Assembly: GCA_002720125.1 (NCBI GenBank)
Contig: PBGQ01000018.1
Location: 19,805 to 36,011, forward strand
DNA length: 16,207 nt
Origin: Rickettsiales bacterium
GTDB lineage: Bacteria; Pseudomonadota; Alphaproteobacteria; TMED109
Direction of reading: 5' to 3'
The notes below the pieces were generated by a model. It worked only from the letters and a program-made list of their open reading frames with translations. It was not told where the DNA came from and ran no database searches. Of this stretch, positions 1-7,333 are shown piece by piece (within the stretch, counting starts at the first letter, position 1; each line of letters begins with the position of its first letter). Both the position numbers and the translations under genes were made by a program.

Positions 1-410
1 TGTTCTAAATACATTTGCTCAAGTTCAACCGCACCGTTACCGTCTTTTACATAAGCATGCTCTAGTTCTACTTCACTATTGAAACTTAACCATTTATTAA
101 ATTGATGTCCTATAAACGTTACATATCTATGAGCATCTAATTTTTTAGTAGAACCTGGATCACCTGCTGTGACATCTTTGGAAATGTGTGCCATCTCCCA
201 GTGAAGTTCACCATATCCACCAATAGAGGTTTTGGTCCACCAACCATCTCCTCCTTCACCACCCTCTTCAATTACAGCAGCCAGTGCATCTATTTCATCT
301 TGCATATCTGCTAATTTTTGTTCAAGGTGACCATCAGCCATTAGTAGACTAATTTGAAATAATAAGCCTGTTATTATTCCAATAAATACCTTTAAAAATT
401 TATTAATCAT
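1..410 (-). CDS. Outer-membrane porin, N-terminal part (runs off the window)
   Basis: The reading frame is open from an ATG at 410 down to base 1, giving 136 codons of N-terminus. Residues 1-25 form a signal peptide ending in LLMA. A short helical, probably coiled-coil, segment follows (about 28-48, LEQKLADMQDEIDALAAVIE), then a Gly-rich linker. From residue 60 come alternating beta-strand-like segments with SIGGYGELHW, AHRYVTFIGHQFN and SEVELEHAY. This layout (periplasmic coiled coil, then a barrel starting with GGYGELH) is that of OprO/OprP-like porins of Gram-negative bacteria, which let small anions or chelates through the outer membrane. An SD-like GGAGA lies at 418-422. Its promoter region carries an iron-regulator-like palindrome and it follows a periplasmic iron operon, so a role in iron or iron-chelate entry is inferred. 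Substrate cannot be read from this fragment. Confidence 0.75.
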   Translation of the reverse strand, partial: MINKFLKVFIGIITGLLFQISLLMADGHLEQKLADMQDEIDALAAVIEEGGEGGDGWWTKTSIGGYGELHWEMAHISKDVTAGDPGSTKKLDAHRYVTFIGHQFNKWLSFNSEVELEHAYVKDGNGAVELEQMYLE

Positions 411-435
411 ATTCGTATCTCCATTCAATAGAGTT

Positions 436-464
436 TATGTAGCGCGAATAGCAATTAATGTCAA
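436..464 (-). promoter_or_regulatory. Candidate sigma70-type promoter of the porin gene
   Basis: On the minus strand there is a perfect -35 TTGACA (459-464), a 17-base spacer and a weaker -10 TACATA (436-441). The predicted start near 429 leaves a leader of about 19 nt containing the GGAGA ribosome site. An alternative -10 is TATACT at 464-469, directly beside the operator-like palindrome but without a convincing -35. Confidence 0.5.
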
Positions 465-469
465 GTATA

Positions 470-488
470 AATGAGAATTATTCTCAAT
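470..488. promoter_or_regulatory. Fur/RirA-type iron operator upstream of the porin
   Basis: The core TGAGAATTATTCTCA (472-486) is a perfect 7-1-7 inverted repeat. The 19-bp stretch 470-488 matches the classical Fur box (AATGATAATNATTATCATT) at all but three of its 18 defined positions. The core also fits the TGA-N9-TCA form described for RirA IRO boxes. It lies just upstream of the porin -35 and beyond the terminator of the preceding operon, so it most likely controls the porin. Which regulator binds cannot be told from the site alone. Confidence 0.75.
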
Positions 489-493
489 AGAGT

Positions 494-519
494 AAAAAAT
501 CCTTATAAATTAGGATTTT
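494..519 (-). terminator. Hairpin terminator after the DUF1513 gene
   Basis: A perfect 8-bp inverted repeat, AAAATCCT (496-503) and AGGATTTT (512-519) with an 8-nt loop, lies 3 nt beyond the stop codon of the DUF1513 gene. On the minus strand the stem runs into six T residues (494-499). The stem is AT-rich, so strength is uncertain, but position and T-tract fit a Rho-independent terminator ending the four-gene iron operon. Confidence 0.55.
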
Positions 520-522
520 CCT

Positions 523-1620
523 TCAAATAAATGTCAATAAATGGTTATCAAATTGGTATTTTTCTTTTATGAATAAATTTTTCTGATATCCTGACAAATT
601 CTGAATAGCTCCTTTCCCGCTAGAAGCAAGCATCAATTCATTTCTTGGGACTTGAGCTAGTCCGCAAACATCAAATTTCCTGTGAGAAGACGTAAGTTTA
701 TGTGTATTTATATTCCAAGCCAATACATAACCTGACCTTGGAAATGAAGCATAGACTAGATTTTTATTTGATAAGACTTTTATACTTCCTACATAGTTGT
801 CAAACTTTTGATAATTATTTGGTATCTTAAAAAAAGTCAATTTTTCTAAATTACACTTAAATACAGTAGATAAAGTCTTATTTTTTGACCTATTGTAAGT
901 TTGGCAACCAGCCAAAATTTCACTTTCCTTTGTATCAAAATGTCTAATACTGAAGTCTTTATATTCTTTTCTTAATTTAAATTGTTTTTGTAATTTACCA
1001 TTGGTTTGACTAATTATACTTAAATTAGAATTAATATCAGACAGATTTAATTTAACCCTAGGAAAATCAGGATGAGTTAAAATACCACCATTTGCAATTA
1101 TAAGCTTTCCATTTTTAGCAATTTTAATTTCATGAGGTCCAATACCATAAGTTTGAAATTCTCCAACTCTTCTAAAATCTCTGAAAGGATCATATATTCC
1201 TATAGAACCTGATCTATCATCACTATAATAATGATGATTTTCAGTTAAAAATAAGAGATTTGAAGTTCTAGAATACGCCCCATGTCCATAAAAATGTCTG
1301 CCTTTTGGTGCTTTTATAAGCTTTGTTTTAGTTTTGTCTTTTAGATCAAAAACTATAAATTCGCTACCTGGTCTTCTAGAAATAACAACAAATTTTTGTA
1401 AGTCTGATATGTAAAGACTGTCATGAGCCCTAAAAGGTAATTTTATTTTTATTAACTCGTATCCTAGGCAATTAAAAATACAAAAATAATTAGAATTTCC
1501 TGAAGTAATAGCGGACCCAATTTTATAAACAAATTCTGGTTTTTTTTTTGCGTACAAATGTGAATTTCCTGAAAAAAATAAATTCAGCATAGTCCATGAA
1601 AAAAAATCTCTTCTATTCAC
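523..1620 (-). CDS. DUF1513 family Tat-exported protein (COG3490)
   Basis: This 365-residue protein starts at GTG (1620), whose G is also the last base of the preceding TAG stop (TAGTG), implying translational coupling. The N-terminus MNRRDFFSW carries twin arginines (R3, R4) followed by a hydrophobic stretch and a likely cleavage after YA (24), so Tat export to the periplasm is expected. The body looks like a beta-propeller of short repeats. Family landmarks are GRHFYGHGAYS (107-117), the segment from LTENHHYY to IYD (125-144), GPHE (161-164) and NGGILTHPDFPRVKLNL (177-193). Several histidines cluster there and could bind a metal, which is inference. The biochemical function of DUF1513 is not established. 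Such proteins typically travel with imelysins and DUF1111 proteins, exactly as here. It is the last gene of the operon. Confidence 0.88.
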   Translation of the reverse strand: MNRRDFFSWTMLNLFFSGNSHLYAKKKPEFVYKIGSAITSGNSNYFCIFNCLGYELIKIKLPFRAHDSLYISDLQKFVVISRRPGSEFIVFDLKDKTKTKLIKAPKGRHFYGHGAYSRTSNLLFLTENHHYYSDDRSGSIGIYDPFRDFRRVGEFQTYGIGPHEIKIAKNGKLIIANGGILTHPDFPRVKLNLSDINSNLSIISQTNGKLQKQFKLRKEYKDFSIRHFDTKESEILAGCQTYNRSKNKTLSTVFKCNLEKLTFFKIPNNYQKFDNYVGSIKVLSNKNLVYASFPRSGYVLAWNINTHKLTSSHRKFDVCGLAQVPRNELMLASSGKGAIQNLSGYQKNLFIKEKYQFDNHLLTFI

Positions 1621-2642
1621 TAATCACCATCCAACTTATTAAAACCAATGTTTATTGATAAAACTTCAGATACATCGTTTAAGAGAGAGCTGTGTAGTGC
1701 TTTTATTTTAAGATGTGCTTTTTCTAAATCAACATTTAATTGTTGTATATTTTTTTCTTTTTCAATGGGATAGGATACATCATTGAGAAAAATGAGAGTC
1801 ATTTTAAAATTATTCTCAAAATCACTAAGTTTAGGATATTTTGCTTCAACCAATAATGGTTTTAGAACCATTGTGTAAAATTCATAAATTGATCCTATGT
1901 TATTGAGTATGCTATCCCAAGAATAATTAGACCTCCAGAATTCAAGTTTCTTTTTGCTATATTTTTGATTTTTTTTAGAGGTATTCACAATTTTTTGATA
2001 CATTATAATTTCTAATTGAGATAATATAGAATTATAAAATAGACCAAGAAGTTGATCTTCATCAATGTTTTCATAAAAATCTGCTTCATTTTTCCAGATA
2101 TTGTGAGTATACAAAAATATAACCTCAAGATTTTTCAAAATAGCTTTCATATAATTGCATACAAAAGTTCTGTTATTAAGATTATAAGTATTCAATTCAT
2201 CAAATATAATTTTTTCTAAAACAGGAATTCCTTGTATAGCAACACTTTTCGCACCTAAGCTTGTAAAGTCTGTATATTCAGAGGATTTATTTCTAATTAC
2301 TTTTTCATACTGCCTTGCAATAACATTTCTCTTGTCTGGCCAAAATTGAATCCTCAAATAGTTGTTAAAATCTTCTATAGGTCCAAATCTGATATGTTGA
2401 ACAGATGTCCAACTATTTAACAACTGAAAGAATTTTTTTTTAAGGTTTTCGGTTTTCTTTTTATTAGTTGAGCAGTAATTATTTACCTCATCTATAAGCA
2501 AATTATTGTTTAACAATAATTTATAGTAATCCTTCTCTATTTTATTTTTATATTTATTAATTTCAAAATTGTCTTGAGTTAGACATTTGCTGAATATAAA
2601 AAAAAAGAGAAAAAATAATAGTCTTTGATAACCTTCAATCAT
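1620..2642 (-). CDS. Imelysin-like (M75 family) periplasmic protein, GxPxxE variant
   Basis: This 340-residue protein begins with a hydrophobic export signal (residues 6-20). Cys20 follows it, but the preceding FSK is a poor lipobox, so lipidation is uncertain. The fold is predicted helical. Recognisable imelysin-type landmarks are SWTSVQHIRFGPIE (77-90), RIQFWPDKR (97-105) and VAIQGIPVLEKIIF (134-147). The last corresponds to the GxHxxE signature of true imelysins but reads G138-x-P140-x-x-E143, with the metal-ligand-type His replaced by Pro. That is typical of the COG3489 branch, so it is unlikely to be a peptidase and may be a binding or structural partner. The start codon overlaps the upstream di-haem gene by 4 nt (ATGA) and the stop overlaps the next start by 1 nt, so the genes are tightly co-translated. 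Confidence 0.85.
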   Translation of the reverse strand: MIEGYQRLLFFLFFFIFSKCLTQDNFEINKYKNKIEKDYYKLLLNNNLLIDEVNNYCSTNKKKTENLKKKFFQLLNSWTSVQHIRFGPIEDFNNYLRIQFWPDKRNVIARQYEKVIRNKSSEYTDFTSLGAKSVAIQGIPVLEKIIFDELNTYNLNNRTFVCNYMKAILKNLEVIFLYTHNIWKNEADFYENIDEDQLLGLFYNSILSQLEIIMYQKIVNTSKKNQKYSKKKLEFWRSNYSWDSILNNIGSIYEFYTMVLKPLLVEAKYPKLSDFENNFKMTLIFLNDVSYPIEKEKNIQQLNVDLEKAHLKIKALHSSLLNDVSEVLSINIGFNKLDGD

Positions 2643-4090
2643 AAAGATTTCAAAAATTTTTCTAATTTATCCAGGTCATTTCCATACTTTTCTATCAAGT
2701 AATCCAAGGATTTCTTTGCCTCACCTGAGTGCCATAGAACAGCTTCCATTATGGTGTTGGCACGTCCATCATGTAAAAATGTAGCTCTGGGGTTTACATC
2801 TTTAGCTAGCCCAATTCCCCAGAGAGGAGGAGTTTTCCATTCTTTATTGGTAATATTTCCTTCTAAATCTTTGTCAGCTAACTCGTCTCCCATGTCGTGT
2901 AACAAAAGGTCAGTATAAGGCCATATAAGTTGATACCTAAGAAAATCAATATCAGCATTTTTAGATGTAACATACTTTGGAGTATGACATGAGGTACATT
3001 GGGATTTGTAAAAGATCTCCTTTCCTTTAAGAACGTCTGAGTCATTAACATTTCTTCTTTTAGGAGGAGATAAACTTGATAGATAAAAAACTACTTTATC
3101 AAGTACTTCTTTACTAGCTTCAAACCCATTGACACTGTCATTACCGTTAGGAAATTTTGAACATTCTGTTTGTTCTATAGTGCAATCTCCATCTGGATTT
3201 TGACCAACAGGGTTGGAGATGCCCATATCGTGCATAAATGCTACACCGGATTGATTTGTTAAGTTATGTGTAGACGCTCTTACTCCAAAACGGCCAACTC
3301 TAATTTTATTTTTATCAACTTTAATTCTTCTTGCTATTCCTGATATACCATCCTGATCATTATCATATTTATCCTCTTTTTTTAAGATGTCACTATCTTC
3401 AATAGCATTAATTAATCCTGTTCCATATACAAATGGCGATATCCTCAATGAGAGAGAGTTATCATTCTCAAATTTTCCATAATTATAATCTAAAATGTCA
3501 AACCTCACTTTAGATAAGCTTTTTGAATAATTTTTTGAGATATTTCTAATTACTTTAGAAGTAGTTATTTTACCTGAAACCTCATTCAAAATACCTGGAA
3601 TTGCAAAAAATTGAAATTGTTTACCATATGTCTTATTTTTAATAAGATCTAGCCCTTTATATTTACCAGTTTTTATTACAAGTGAAAGTGGTCTCTCTGA
3701 GGTTGGTAAATGGCCTCTACCATCCTTTATATGACAAGACTGACATGCTCTCGCATTATATAATGGACCCAATCCGTCGGAAGCAATTGTAGAGGCAGGA
3801 GCTGATATCCAAAGTTTTCTAAAAAGCCCATTACCTATTAAAAAGTCTTGCCTTTGTTGGAAACTCAAATTATTGAAATGCATTGAATAAGCATTTCTAC
3901 CTACTATAGCTACAGTACCAGCTCCCCCTGAGAGATTTTCAGACCTCTCCGCTTTAGAAAAGTTATTTGTTGGAGTTACTACTTTATTAACTACTTTAAT
4001 TTCTTCACTATTGAGATCAACTCTAGCGTGACATATGCTGTAAAAAAAAAAGTATGTAAGTATAAAAAAATTAAAAAGCAGTGACCTCAT
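2639..4090 (-). CDS. Di-haem oxidoreductase, DUF1111/DHOR family c-type cytochrome
   Basis: This 483-residue protein has an N-terminal signal peptide (1-22, cleavage after CHA) and two c-type haem attachment motifs, CQSCH (116-120) and CTSCH (365-369), so it should be matured with covalent haem in the periplasm. Other family features are NGLFRKLW (87-94), GLGPLYNARACQSCH before haem 1, an Asp-rich DNDQDGISG (243-251) that may bind calcium, LLLHDMGDELAD (395-406) and PRATFLHDGRAN (434-445), which supply possible axial His or Met ligands. The length and layout match the di-haem family usually annotated as thiol oxidoreductase. The true substrate is unknown. Its place between two imelysins suggests electron transfer linked to iron acquisition, such as changing the iron redox state, but this is inference. 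The gene starts 5 nt after the upstream imelysin stop. Confidence 0.92.
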   Translation of the reverse strand: MRSLLFNFFILTYFFFYSICHARVDLNSEEIKVVNKVVTPTNNFSKAERSENLSGGAGTVAIVGRNAYSMHFNNLSFQQRQDFLIGNGLFRKLWISAPASTIASDGLGPLYNARACQSCHIKDGRGHLPTSERPLSLVIKTGKYKGLDLIKNKTYGKQFQFFAIPGILNEVSGKITTSKVIRNISKNYSKSLSKVRFDILDYNYGKFENDNSLSLRISPFVYGTGLINAIEDSDILKKEDKYDNDQDGISGIARRIKVDKNKIRVGRFGVRASTHNLTNQSGVAFMHDMGISNPVGQNPDGDCTIEQTECSKFPNGNDSVNGFEASKEVLDKVVFYLSSLSPPKRRNVNDSDVLKGKEIFYKSQCTSCHTPKYVTSKNADIDFLRYQLIWPYTDLLLHDMGDELADKDLEGNITNKEWKTPPLWGIGLAKDVNPRATFLHDGRANTIMEAVLWHSGEAKKSLDYLIEKYGNDLDKLEKFLKSL

Positions 4091-4095
4091 ACGTA

Positions 4096-5343
4096 TTAAT
4101 TAAATACAGCATCAGGATTATCAAGGGAGTCTGAACCTTCTATTTGTAAATTACTGATATTTAACGATTTAGCAACTTCTTCTATACTTCTACTTTGAAC
4201 TACCAACGCGTCCACAGCATCCTGAATAAGACGATTTCCATCATCATTTCCTTCAGCTATTAACATGTCATAAGTAATACCACCTTCAGCTGAGTCTACT
4301 ATTTTTTGCATTCTATTAATTGTTTGATTGATTGCATTTCTAACCGCTAAATCTAAATCTTTATCTATTAAAGCAACTTTGGAACTAAGACTGTCGCCTT
4401 TAATAGTTTTACCATCAATATTTTTGTAGTTTCCTAAGTACACGTTCTTGATACCGATCACGTTATAAAAATGGGAATTGTGTGTATTGTCAGAAAAACA
4501 ATCATGTTCTTCTTCTGGATCATTTAGCATAAGACCTAATTTCATTCTTTCACCAGCTAATTCTCCATAAGAGAGACTTCCCATACCTATCAAAATTCTC
4601 TTTAATGCTTCCATTTCATTTTCTTTAAGAATGTCGTTTCTTGCTTCTCCGTTAACTCCCCATTTTGCGACTATTTCTTCAAGATCTGAAACTAATAACT
4701 CGGCTGCAGCTTTCAAATAATCTCTTCTTCTATCACAGTTAGTATTTGAACAAGCTTTAAGACTATAATCTTCAAAACCTCGCTTGCCAGCGCCAGCTTT
4801 TGTCCCATTTAAGTCTTGTCCCCACAACAAGAATTCTATCGCATGATAGCCAGTTGCTACGTTAGCTTCATTACCTCCAATTTCATGAAGAACATCTCCA
4901 AGAAGATTAGCATTTATTACTCTAGCATCTATTTCATTGCCCTCAACTTTTAAAACTGAGTTAGCAACAACGTTAAAGTTTGAAAAATCATTTTCACTAG
5001 GATAGTAATTAGTATTATCAACATAATCTATTAATCCTTCATCTAGAGGCCAAGCATTAACTTTGCCTTCCCATTCATCAACAATGGCATTACCAAACCT
5101 AAAAACTTCAGTCTGTTGATATACAGTTCTTGCTTTTAACCAACTTTTTTTAACCTCCAAAAACTTTTTTTCACTCGGAGCTTCTAAAAAGAAATTTATT
5201 TTAGAAAGCATAACTTCAGCTAATGTGAGGGAGTCTTTGTATTTAGCGTATGCTATATTTGCATAGTTATCTGTAATACTATTTTTAGAAAAAGATAAAT
5301 AACAGACAAAATATATTAAACCAGCAAGTAAAATTTTTTTCAT
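4096..5343 (-). CDS. Imelysin (peptidase M75 family) iron-regulated protein
   Basis: This 415-residue protein opens the operon. ATG at 5343 is preceded by a good SD, GAGGTG (5348-5353). A signal peptide covers about residues 1-19. The mature part carries the imelysin signatures: a helical repeat with WLKARTVYQQTEVFRFG (68-84), WPLDEGLIDY (98-107), the GxHxxE motif GYHAIEFLLWGQDL (165-178, H167 and E170), and EEEHDCFSDNTH (277-288). Imelysins, also called IrpA, ICMP or the M75 domain of EfeO, are periplasmic or outer-membrane-attached proteins linked to iron uptake. Peptidase activity has been claimed for some members, but an iron-binding role is widely preferred. This is a true GxHxxE member, in contrast to the GxPxxE paralogue two genes downstream. 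It diverges from a ferric-iron binding protein gene and shares a regulatory region with it. Confidence 0.93.
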   Translation of the reverse strand: MKKILLAGLIYFVCYLSFSKNSITDNYANIAYAKYKDSLTLAEVMLSKINFFLEAPSEKKFLEVKKSWLKARTVYQQTEVFRFGNAIVDEWEGKVNAWPLDEGLIDYVDNTNYYPSENDFSNFNVVANSVLKVEGNEIDARVINANLLGDVLHEIGGNEANVATGYHAIEFLLWGQDLNGTKAGAGKRGFEDYSLKACSNTNCDRRRDYLKAAAELLVSDLEEIVAKWGVNGEARNDILKENEMEALKRILIGMGSLSYGELAGERMKLGLMLNDPEEEHDCFSDNTHNSHFYNVIGIKNVYLGNYKNIDGKTIKGDSLSSKVALIDKDLDLAVRNAINQTINRMQKIVDSAEGGITYDMLIAEGNDDGNRLIQDAVDALVVQSRSIEEVAKSLNISNLQIEGSDSLDNPDAVFN

Positions 5344-5380
5344 AATACACCTCTATAAGTTAGGAATATGACAACTTATA

Positions 5381-5408
5381 ATAATAGTTAATATTTTCTT
5401 GATTTCAA
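5381..5408 (-). promoter_or_regulatory. Candidate promoter of the imelysin operon
   Basis: On the minus strand, TTGAAA (5403-5408) and TATTAT (5381-5386) are separated by 16 nt. Transcription would begin near 5374, about 30 nt ahead of the imelysin ATG. In DNA this AT-rich, chance matches are common, so this is only a candidate. Confidence 0.4.
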
Positions 5409-5426
5409 TAATTTATTTGATAATAA
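5399..5426 (+). promoter_or_regulatory. Candidate promoter of futA
   Basis: TTGATT (5399-5404) and TAATAA (5421-5426) lie 16 nt apart, with several overlapping -10-like frames in the GATAATAATAAT run. The -10 would lie inside the operator-like element at 5418-5437, a classical arrangement for repression by an iron regulator. AT-richness makes the exact boxes uncertain. Confidence 0.3.
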
Positions 5427-5437
5427 TAATCATATGC
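5418..5437. promoter_or_regulatory. Fur/RirA-type operator between the imelysin operon and futA
   Basis: TGATAATAATAATCA (5418-5432) again has the TGA-N9-TCA form and is identical at 11 of 15 positions to the palindrome at 472-486. The 19 bases from 5419 match the E. coli-type Fur consensus GATAATGATAATCATTATC at 15 positions. It lies in the shared region of two divergent iron genes and could control both. Confidence 0.6.
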
Positions 5438-5452
5438 AGATTATTTCTGCAT
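5434..5452. promoter_or_regulatory. Palindrome ATGCAGA-N5-TCTGCAT ahead of futA
   Basis: A perfect 7-bp inverted repeat with a 5-nt centre, ending 18 nt before the futA ATG. It is the only GC-containing dyad in an otherwise almost pure AT intergenic region. It could be a second operator or a short hairpin in the futA leader. It partly overlaps the Fur-like element, so binding of two factors might be exclusive. Confidence 0.45.
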
Positions 5453-5470
5453 CTTTTATATAAAAATAAA

Positions 5471-6475
5471 ATGCTAAAATTTTTTTTAATTCTTATATTT
5501 TTCTATACAAATTATACCTTGTCAAAAACTGATAATTTTATAAATCTTTATTCTGCAAGGCAAAGTGTTTTGATGGAACCGTTAATAGAAGCTTTTCAAA
5601 AAGAAACTGACATAAAAGTAAATATTATCGCTGCTAAAGCAAGTCAATTAATTAACAGAATTGAGTCTGAAGGACAATATACAAAAGCAGATATTTTGCT
5701 AACTACGGATGTGGGAAGGTTAATTCAAGCACAAAAAAAAAAATTATTTATTAAAGTTGAAAGTGAAATAATTAATGAAGCTTTACCTTCAAAATTTAAG
5801 GATGAAAAAAATGAATGGTTCGGACTAAGTTTGAGATCAAGGATTTTAGTTTATAATACTAAAAAAGTAGATAAAAGTAATCTTTCTGGATACTTTGATT
5901 TGTCAAATAAAAAATGGGATAGACGAATAATGGTTCGCTCTTCAAATAATGTTTACAATCAATCTTTAGTAGCAGCAATGATATTAAACTACGGAGAAAA
6001 AAAAGTAGAAAAATTTCTGAAGAACTTTGTTAAAAATTTTGCTAGAAAGCCATCCGGCGGAGATCGGGATCAAATAAAAGCGGTAGTAGCAGGTCAAGGA
6101 GACATTGCTCTTGTAAATAGTTATTATTTTCTAAAAATGAAATTTAACGATCATAAAGATACTCTTAAGAATGTGGCAGTTCACTTTCCTAGTGATGGTA
6201 TAATGAATACACATGTCAATTTAAGTGGAGCAGGTATAATAAAATATTCTAAAAATTACATTAATTCCGTTAAGTTTTTGGAGTTTATGTTAAGTGATCA
6301 GGCTCAAGAAATCTATTCTGATATAAATTATGAGTACCCAATTAAGAAAAAAATAAAAGTTTCAAATAAGATGCAGCCTTATTTAATTACTAAACAAGAT
6401 AATCTAAGTCTTTTTGAAATAGGAAAAGTTAACGAAAAAGCTATAATATTGATGGATAAAGCAGGCTGGAAATAA
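5471..6475 (+). CDS. futA: Ferric-iron ABC transporter substrate-binding protein (FutA/FbpA type)
   Basis: I choose ATG 5471 (334 residues) because it begins a normal signal peptide (MLKFFLILIFFYTNYTLS, about 1-18). The frame stays open upstream to a TTG at 5399, but that adds 24 hydrophobic residues before the signal and would run through the operator region. Family landmarks are INLYSARQ (24-31), the segment KADILLTTDVGRL after a KxSQLINRIESEG-like helix, SSNNVYNQSLVAAM (156-169) and VNSYYF (215-220). Tyr27, Tyr162, Tyr218 and Tyr219 match the tyrosine cluster that binds Fe(III) in this class. The protein would carry ferric iron across the periplasm to an inner-membrane permease. No permease or ATPase gene is in the window, so the rest of the transporter must be elsewhere. 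It diverges from the imelysin operon. Confidence 0.9.
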   Translation: MLKFFLILIFFYTNYTLSKTDNFINLYSARQSVLMEPLIEAFQKETDIKVNIIAAKASQLINRIESEGQYTKADILLTTDVGRLIQAQKKKLFIKVESEIINEALPSKFKDEKNEWFGLSLRSRILVYNTKKVDKSNLSGYFDLSNKKWDRRIMVRSSNNVYNQSLVAAMILNYGEKKVEKFLKNFVKNFARKPSGGDRDQIKAVVAGQGDIALVNSYYFLKMKFNDHKDTLKNVAVHFPSDGIMNTHVNLSGAGIIKYSKNYINSVKFLEFMLSDQAQEIYSDINYEYPIKKKIKVSNKMQPYLITKQDNLSLFEIGKVNEKAIILMDKAGWK

Positions 6476-6502: not shown

Positions 6503-7333
6503 ATGAACCTTAGAGAAAGTCAAAATATAGATTCTTGCTCTTTTGAATTTATTTCTCAAAATTCACCTTTGATTATAATGGTTCCTCATAGTGGAAGAAA
6601 TTATGATAAGACTCTGCTTAATCAAACTCAACTAAGCATTAAAGAGTTACGGGACTCTGAAGATGCTTATGTGGATAAATTTTTTTCCAATAATGTTAAA
6701 AAATTCTCATTTTTAAAAGCAAAATTTCCTAGAATATTTGTTGATGTAAATAGATCTCCTTTAGAAATAGATCCACTTATGTGGCAAGAAAACGGTCTGA
6801 CAAAAATTTTTAATCAGAAAACATTAAAAGTACTTTCTGGTATTGGAGTTTTTCCAAAAGTAAACCTGCAAGGTGATTTTCTGTACAATTCAAAAATACC
6901 ATTTATAGAAGCAAAAAGAAGACTTTTTAAATATTATTTTCCTTACCATAAAAAAATAAAAGATGTTATAAATACAACAATTATCAAATTTAAGAAAGTT
7001 GTAGCTTTAGATTGTCATTCAATGGCGTCAGATATAATTGACAGCGACGTAGTTCTAAGCAATGGCCAAGGTATAACTGCAAGTTACGATATTTTGTATT
7101 TTATGAAAGACTTTTTTAAAAGTTTTGGTTTTAAAGTTAGTATAAATAATCCTTTTAAAGGAGGTTTCATTTCCTATCATCATTCAAACATTAAAAAAAA
7201 TATACATTTTATCCAAGTCGAAGTTAATAAAAGAATATACATGTCAGAACAAGATTACACTATAAAAAAAGAAGAAATGAAAAAATTACAATCTTGTTTT
7301 AAAAAGTTAGTAGAAAACATTATTATGAATTAA
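6503..7333 (+). CDS. N-formylglutamate amidohydrolase family protein
   Basis: This 276-residue cytoplasmic protein has no signal peptide. It carries the family motifs MVPHSGRNYD (26-35), DVNRSPLEIDPLMW (81-94), ALDCHSM (168-174), NNPFKGGFISYHH (215-227) and FIQVEVNKRIYM (236-247). His29, Asp170, His172 and Glu240 are in positions expected for the zinc-dependent amidohydrolase fold (PF05013). Members deformylate N-formylglutamate at the end of one histidine breakdown route, but no hut genes are present here, so the physiological substrate may differ. The gene starts 27 nt after the futA stop, and no clear ribosome site is seen. It may be read through from futA or from an unseen promoter. Confidence 0.88.
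   Translation: MNLRESQNIDSCSFEFISQNSPLIIMVPHSGRNYDKTLLNQTQLSIKELRDSEDAYVDKFFSNNVKKFSFLKAKFPRIFVDVNRSPLEIDPLMWQENGLTKIFNQKTLKVLSGIGVFPKVNLQGDFLYNSKIPFIEAKRRLFKYYFPYHKKIKDVINTTIIKFKKVVALDCHSMASDIIDSDVVLSNGQGITASYDILYFMKDFFKSFGFKVSINNPFKGGFISYHHSNIKKNIHFIQVEVNKRIYMSEQDYTIKKEEMKKLQSCFKKLVENIIMN

Follow-up and report, generated by a model that had tools for sequence, protein, structure and literature searches.

How do planktonic bacteria acquire iron when they have few TonB receptors, and what is the role of operons that encode imelysins together with a di-haem enzyme? Both questions are raised by a stretch of 16,207 nucleotides (the window, G000:C38:19805-36011 in our numbering) from a Rickettsiales bacterium of the alphaproteobacterial lineage TMED109, whose assembly G000 (GCA_002720125.1) has 1.42 Mb in 51 contigs and is 79% complete. 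Two iron-linked units are neighbours here. The first encodes imelysin 1, a di-haem oxidoreductase (DHOR; PF06537/DUF1111), imelysin 2, and a DUF1513 protein; the second encodes a porin, a flavin mononucleotide (FMN)-binding protein, and a PepSY_TM protein (together, the trio). We propose, with a probability of about 0.4, that the two units form a reductive route for iron through the envelope under Fur-type control. Gene content, gene order, recurrence, motifs, and operator-like boxes were observed directly in the genomes and are described first.

The Imelysin–DHOR Run and the Porin–FMN–PepSY_TM Trio

An earlier reading made from the letters of the window alone (the sequence-only reading) had named a porin, two imelysins, DHOR, DUF1513, and a FutA-like protein, and all six are borne out. 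Its picture of a haem c enzyme between two imelysins in an iron-linked envelope module is likewise supported by gene content. Among solved chains, imelysin 1 matched best to 7xrx ("insulin-cleaving metalloproteinase outer membrane protein," E 6.4e-109). The CxxCH pair is kept in all 41 aligned DHOR proteins, and the twin-arginine RR of DUF1513 in 10/10; neither protein had a PDB match (at E 0.1 for DHOR and E 1 for DUF1513). Imelysins 1 and 2 are the only PF09375 genes in the whole assembly. Spacing along the minus-strand run is +5, -4, and -1 bp, which makes co-translation of the four genes plausible. The same run is found in genome G004 and at eight loci in other families of the class, in two of which (L062, L067) imelysin 1 and DHOR are 1.6-1.8 kb apart.

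That imelysin-DUF1111 clusters are known had been recognised in the sequence-only reading, and the imelysin-DHOR-imelysin core is not new as a type. It is present in the Pseudomonas aeruginosa genes PA4370-PA4373, of which PA4373 is presumably the DUF1513 protein. These genes have been described as a Fur-regulated operon that encodes a DUF1111 protein between two that resemble imelysins, in a paper that also describes the GxHxxE and GxxxxE imelysin families and VC1264 and VC1266 (Xu 2011, PMC3143127). As in PA4370-PA4373 and VC1264-VC1266, imelysins of both families stand around a DUF1111 di-haem protein here, so that a GxHxxE imelysin, DHOR, and a GxxxxE imelysin, the mark of an ICMP-type operon, are found in one run. 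Unlike in PA4370-PA4373, however, the run is flanked by the trio and FutA, which go unmentioned in the available text of PMC3143127. Among the open-access papers searched, imelysin and DUF1111 appeared together in Xu 2011 only. A role for the imelysins as peptidases was set aside, as the same paper argues against it (PMC3143127). At one locus from another family, an unclassified outer-membrane-barrel-like protein that reached no Pfam or NCBIfam cut-off lies 38 bp upstream of imelysin 1 (L057:6647-7732).

Of the redox genes, those with the strongest tie to the porin are the FMN-binding and PepSY_TM genes, which lie outside the window. The FMN-binding protein matches its domain model only marginally (21.8 bits, just under the cut-off of 22), and the threonine of its SGAT motif is invariant in 30/30 aligned relatives. 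Two histidines are invariant in 28/28 PepSY_TM relatives, of which 20 have two hydrophobic segments, 7 have three, and 1 has one; by analogy with the description of FoxB (PMC11334425), PepSY_TM may act as a haem-carrying dimer. Our genome has one ApbE gene, away from the cluster, and ApbE adjoins the porin-FMN pair at 11 of the 41 loci counted below (five ApbE proteins were confirmed with Pfam). These features match PepSY-like flavinylation clusters, where PepSY_TM stands by an FMN-binding protein, often with ApbE, and a role in iron assimilation has been proposed (Meheust 2021, PMC8238504): PepSY_TM adjoins the FMN-binding gene here, and ApbE is in the genome. The iron links of those clusters lend our proposal some support by analogy. 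They are described with DUF2271, DUF4198, VIT1, or TonB (PMC8238504), whereas here the partner is a porin, a word absent from the main texts of PMC8238504 and PMC11334425. No open-access paper was found that combines porin, PepSY, FMN-binding, and iron, in a search outside which most subscription journals fall; of the four listed open-access papers that name any three of the terms ApbE, porin, FMN-binding, and PepSY, none joins porin and PepSY. Behind one porin-FMN pair that lacks PepSY_TM, the opposite strand gives a DUF4405 match (L155:11047-11499) that is weak (E 0.008, below cut-off) and is perhaps another membrane electron carrier.

Recurrence of the Join

Related loci were searched with three anchors. 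DHOR matched in 31 of 97 relatives and the FMN protein in 25 of 97 (32 named loci); the porin-anchored search gave 11 of 299 genomes of the phylum, our own counted. The closest relatives of the FMN protein come from alphaproteobacterial single-cell and metagenome genomes (Rhodospirillaceae, Candidatus Pelagibacterales, MarineAlpha9, TMED109). After removal of 13 duplicate loci, as for the counts of boxes and conserved residues, the porin was next to the FMN gene in 41 non-redundant loci, our own counted, with 10 near a contig end. This number excludes L081 (cut porin), L095 and L131 (no porin in view), L130 and L162 (porin at contig end), L163 (weak porin), and L096-L098, L100, L104, and L105 (score or spacing limits); FMN matches in G014 and G024 were outside the locus comparison. 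PepSY_TM accompanied the pair in 33 loci, and imelysin or DHOR lay within 6 kb in 13. The latter figure is a biased rate because seven loci (L003, L035, L038, L041, L042, L047, L050) were first reached via DHOR. Less biased rates are 10/32 for FMN-anchored loci and 1/10 for porin-anchored loci other than our own, where the FMN gene adjoins the porin in 9/10 and PepSY_TM is present in 7/10.

The join takes several forms. Imelysin and the trio are divergent in genus g4 and in L088, L090, and L093 (Proteobacteria or Gammaproteobacteria), and they share a strand in L042 and in our own locus. At L157, from another alphaproteobacterial family, imelysin 1, the trio, ApbE, DHOR, imelysin 2, and DUF1513 occupy one locus. 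What is of interest is less the imelysin operon, already known, than its repeated pairing with the porin-flavin-PepSY_TM unit, from which the imelysin genes would gain a source of electrons and a route of entry.

Fur-Box-Like Sites on Both Flanks

Operator-like sites had been suggested on both sides of the run, and both were recovered, one exact and one weaker. Exact TGANAATNATTNTCA sites number 5 in the assembly, among them the palindrome TGAGAATTATTCTCA before the porin. Between imelysin 1 and futA lies TGATAATAATAATCA, one of 27 sites with a single mismatch, which is weak by itself, since a reversed-pattern control gave 22 sites vs. 32 in total (exact plus one-mismatch). It is strengthened by the finding that FutA is preceded by a box at p<=0.05 (vs. 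100 shuffles) in 5/5 loci, our own counted. At the same threshold, boxes precede 18/29 porin genes and 16/29 imelysin 1 genes. The test used score limits, excluded genes <80 bases from the end of a contig, treated N as A, and had a p grain of 0.01. The assembly has one Fur-family gene, whose product we infer to bind the boxes and sense iron. No promoters are claimed, as a scan gave 22 promoter-like sites vs. 27.1 in shuffles.

Behind the other exact boxes are an aldehyde-dehydrogenase-like frame, an HbpS-like gene, a pyrroloquinoline quinone (PQQ)-dehydrogenase-like frame, and a small gene followed by AhpC-/AhpD-like frames (HbpS alone was Pfam-tested; the other names come from reading). The AhpC-/AhpD-like frames would fit a response to oxidative stress or manganese instead of iron, with DHOR acting as a peroxidase under a Fur-family regulator of PerR or Mur type; Pfam does label DHOR a putative peroxidase, and alphaproteobacterial relatives of Fur can sense manganese. 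We consider this improbable, as imelysin, PepSY_TM, and FutA have iron links in the literature (PMC3143127, PMC8238504, PMC9174327) and orthologues are iron-responsive in Vibrio cholerae: VC1264 and VC1266 belong to its iron regulon (PMC5816637), and VC1264 and VC1265 are among the iron-limitation transcripts that it has in common with A. salmonicida (PMC4324432). A table in a study of the regulator IurV likewise places VC1264 and VC1265 alongside genes for iron uptake (PMC7600106).

The HbpS-like gene bears on a further alternative, that the cluster is for haem iron or some defined chelate of iron instead of inorganic iron and that DHOR and PepSY_TM act on that ligand. In L036, imelysin 1 has another HbpS-like gene diverging from it. 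In L037, the nearby TonB receptor fits haem and siderophore receptor models best, although below cut-off. The chance of this being right appears small: the trio is adjoined by a FutA-like protein, and haem lowered imelysin melting temperatures but the site was judged too small for it (PMC3143127).

A Porin with a Conserved Acidic Stretch

The sequence-only reading had placed the porin in one module with the run. Adjacency holds, but the porin start lies 112 bp beyond DUF1513 and has its own box, so the porin is probably a separate unit. Its whole frame, which includes a few N-derived X residues, reached no Pfam cut-off, including that of Porin_O_P (PF07396), which had no match in G000; two close relatives reached no NCBIfam model. 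Invariant in 29 aligned porins are E119, E121, E123, H124, E135, E137, and Q138, as well as N168, H171, E172, P173, T175, and F176, with E133 kept in 27/29 and E169 in 28/29. The alternating acids would fit one face of a beta-strand, putatively the side that faces the pore.

These porins thus share an ExExEH stretch and a HEPxTF motif, a pair absent together from eight Porin_O_P controls. HEPxTF was found in 0/8 usable controls, as were glutamates 119 and 123; position 121 is acidic in controls too, and histidine 124 occurs in some. Of 14 control loci picked from 26 matches, 10 yielded a frame, and 8 were usable after L183 (1 aa) and L171 (wrong-looking frame) were discarded. A Ferrimonas member (L087) reached 28.5 bits against the Porin_O_P cut-off of 20.9, whereas a Zoogloea-type porin (L101), like our own, stayed under it; G and ER-type positions are common to Porin_O_P and these porins.

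FutA Is Linked Through the Porin

The FutA-like gene probably starts at ATG 5471 rather than at TTG 5399. Its protein matched solved iron-binding proteins (6g7n, E 5.8e-80; 2pt1, E 7.3e-72) over its full length, as expected of FutA/FbpA, and the YNQS and SYY-equivalent tyrosines are retained in 5/5 aligned proteins. It differs in the N-lobe, with SARQS here vs. SSRHY in 6g7n, and reached no NCBIfam equivalog; its best NCBIfam matches were phosphonate-binding models, far under their cut-offs.

Partnership of FutA with the imelysins and DHOR, as the sequence-only reading had it, was not borne out at other loci: FutA matched in none of the 38 loci examined around imelysin or DHOR. A conserved FutA-imelysin pair was rejected, as FutA was seen beside either gene in no other locus. 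Partnership with the porin did hold. FutA stands beside the porin in 5 of the 41 porin-FMN loci, our own counted; the four others have no imelysin or DHOR in view, and three of these are on short contigs. The FutA link therefore runs through the porin. The neighbourhood itself is not unique to this genome. Genus g8 has FutA diverging from the trio in four genomes (L074-L077), and in L076 and L077 an amidohydrolase gene adjoins it, much as on the right flank of the window.

Weighing the Proposal Against Independent Units

Several observations weigh against a joint route. Imelysin or DHOR is out of view in 28/41 porin-FMN loci, and eight alphaproteobacterial imelysin runs have no trio nearby; each unit can therefore do without its neighbour. 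Genus g7, of the same family, has a TonB receptor, ExbB, and TonB directly ahead of imelysin 1-DHOR (L037:1960-10445; L044 by reading), with the trio elsewhere in both genomes. The outer-membrane partner of imelysin-DHOR thus seems exchangeable, these runs following TonB genes where other loci have the trio. There are two TonB-receptor plugs in our own assembly. No box at p<=0.05 was found before 11/29 porin and 13/29 imelysin 1 genes, and the other exact boxes precede genes without an obvious iron role. Five PF00528 matches (frames of 238-299 aa) in the 79%-complete assembly, two of them at inspected loci, included none that was obviously FutB-like (FutC was not sought). Moreover, ferric ion had no effect on PIBO or IPPA (Xu 2011, PMC3143127).

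It is quite possible, if short of even odds, that two independent iron-responsive units have become neighbours through common control, with imelysin-DHOR working alone with any outer-membrane route, the trio being a separate assimilatory reductase, and FutA being a third, general part. That each unit is often found without the other and that imelysin-DHOR follows TonB genes in genus g7 would both be expected. What speaks for a joint route instead is that the units have joined repeatedly, in different lineages and in differing order, and that L157 has the trio within its imelysin run.

The other uptake genes were also considered. Six FeoB matches in the 79%-complete assembly did not exceed 51 bits, and by reading, their frame lengths suggest other GTPases. 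A TonB-free organism was rejected on the two plugs, of which one fits the B12 receptor model best and the other is unclassified; at least one plug is present in 27/28 family genomes.

A Possible Route for Iron

Iron as the substrate, the redox direction, and the regulator are proposed here from sequence. When iron is low, a Fur-type repressor would leave the boxes. Iron or small iron complexes would then cross the outer membrane via the porin. PepSY_TM, via its two invariant histidines, would send electrons over the inner membrane to the FMN protein, to which ApbE would have attached flavin at the SGAT threonine. As in other PepSY systems, the FMN protein could reduce Fe(III), releasing its ligands. 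The steps after reduction are the least certain part: imelysin 1 may hold iron at its GxHxxE region, DHOR may set the oxidation state at hand-over, probably by re-oxidising Fe(II), imelysin 2 and DUF1513 may assist, and FutA would carry Fe(III) to an ATP-binding cassette permease. The candidate residues are those of ExExEH, HEPxTF, and SGAT and the two PepSY_TM histidines.

EfeB is a DyP-type enzyme, unlike the di-haem c protein DHOR. EfeUOB/M does, as here, bring together an imelysin-domain protein and a haem enzyme in iron uptake (PMC3143127, PMC9174327), and Xu called EfeB a DUF1111 member (PMC3143127). The M75-only protein EfeM kept about 1.4 Fe(II) or 1.3 Fe(III) (PMC9174327). EfeU was not seen among the frames around the cluster, and a genome-wide FTR1 search was not made.

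A bolder and doubtful extension is that this is TonB-independent reductive iron uptake in Gram-negative bacteria, in plan like that of yeast. The porin would be dedicated to metal, lined with acids and bearing an HEPxTF loop, the PepSY_TM haem dimer and flavinylated protein a ferric reductase, the imelysins and di-haem enzyme chaperones and ferroxidase, and FutA the receiver, with the porin-reductase core extending from marine Alphaproteobacteria to Gammaproteobacteria and Verrucomicrobia.

Coordinates and Minor Features

Coordinates are collected in Table 1; L003 is our own locus. The possible terminator behind DUF1513 was absent from the output of an automated scan.

Table 1. Features of the window, its surroundings, and the assembly
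Feature	Position	Strand	Evidence or remark
Porin gene, 5' part	1..410	-	ATG at 410; extends past window; whole frame L003:11004-12233
Fur-box-like palindrome before porin	472..486	.	Exact match
Possible terminator after DUF1513 (A+T-rich hairpin, T run)	495..519	-	Read by eye
DUF1513, twin-arginine start	523..1620	-	PF07433, 250.7 bits
Imelysin 2, IPPA/PA4372-like	1620..2642	-	PF09375, 80.8 bits; solved match 3pf0, E 9e-7
GIPVLE codons, imelysin 2, replacing GxHxxE	2214..2231	-	Sequence
DHOR	2639..4090	-	PF06537, E 3.2e-77; two CxxCH
Second haem c motif CTSCH, DHOR	2984..2998	-	Sequence
First haem c motif CQSCH, DHOR	3731..3745	-	Sequence
Imelysin 1, ICMP-like	4096..5343	-	PF09375, 262 bits
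GYHAIE codons (GxHxxE motif), imelysin 1	4834..4851	-	Sequence; 30/30 aligned
Fur-box-like site between imelysin 1 and futA	5418..5432	.	One mismatch
FutA-like ferric-iron binding protein	5471..6475	+	Solved iron-binding matches
N-formylglutamate amidohydrolase family gene behind futA	6503-7333		Also near FutA in L076, L077
FMN-binding gene, 182 aa	L003:10302-10829	Same strand, after porin	PF04205, 21.8 bits vs. cut-off 22
PepSY_TM gene, 252 aa	L003:9563-10321	Same strand, after FMN gene	PF03929, 49.4 bits
145-aa secreted-looking protein and MscS-like channel	L003:7773-9553	After trio	Also in genus g8 (L074, L077)
Four other exact boxes	G000:C21:9621, C21:10569, C21:42317, C44:25457

Two similar small c-type-cytochrome-like proteins were also seen, one upstream on our own contig (L003:5640-6131) and one behind a PQQ-dehydrogenase-like gene (L144:5359-5844).

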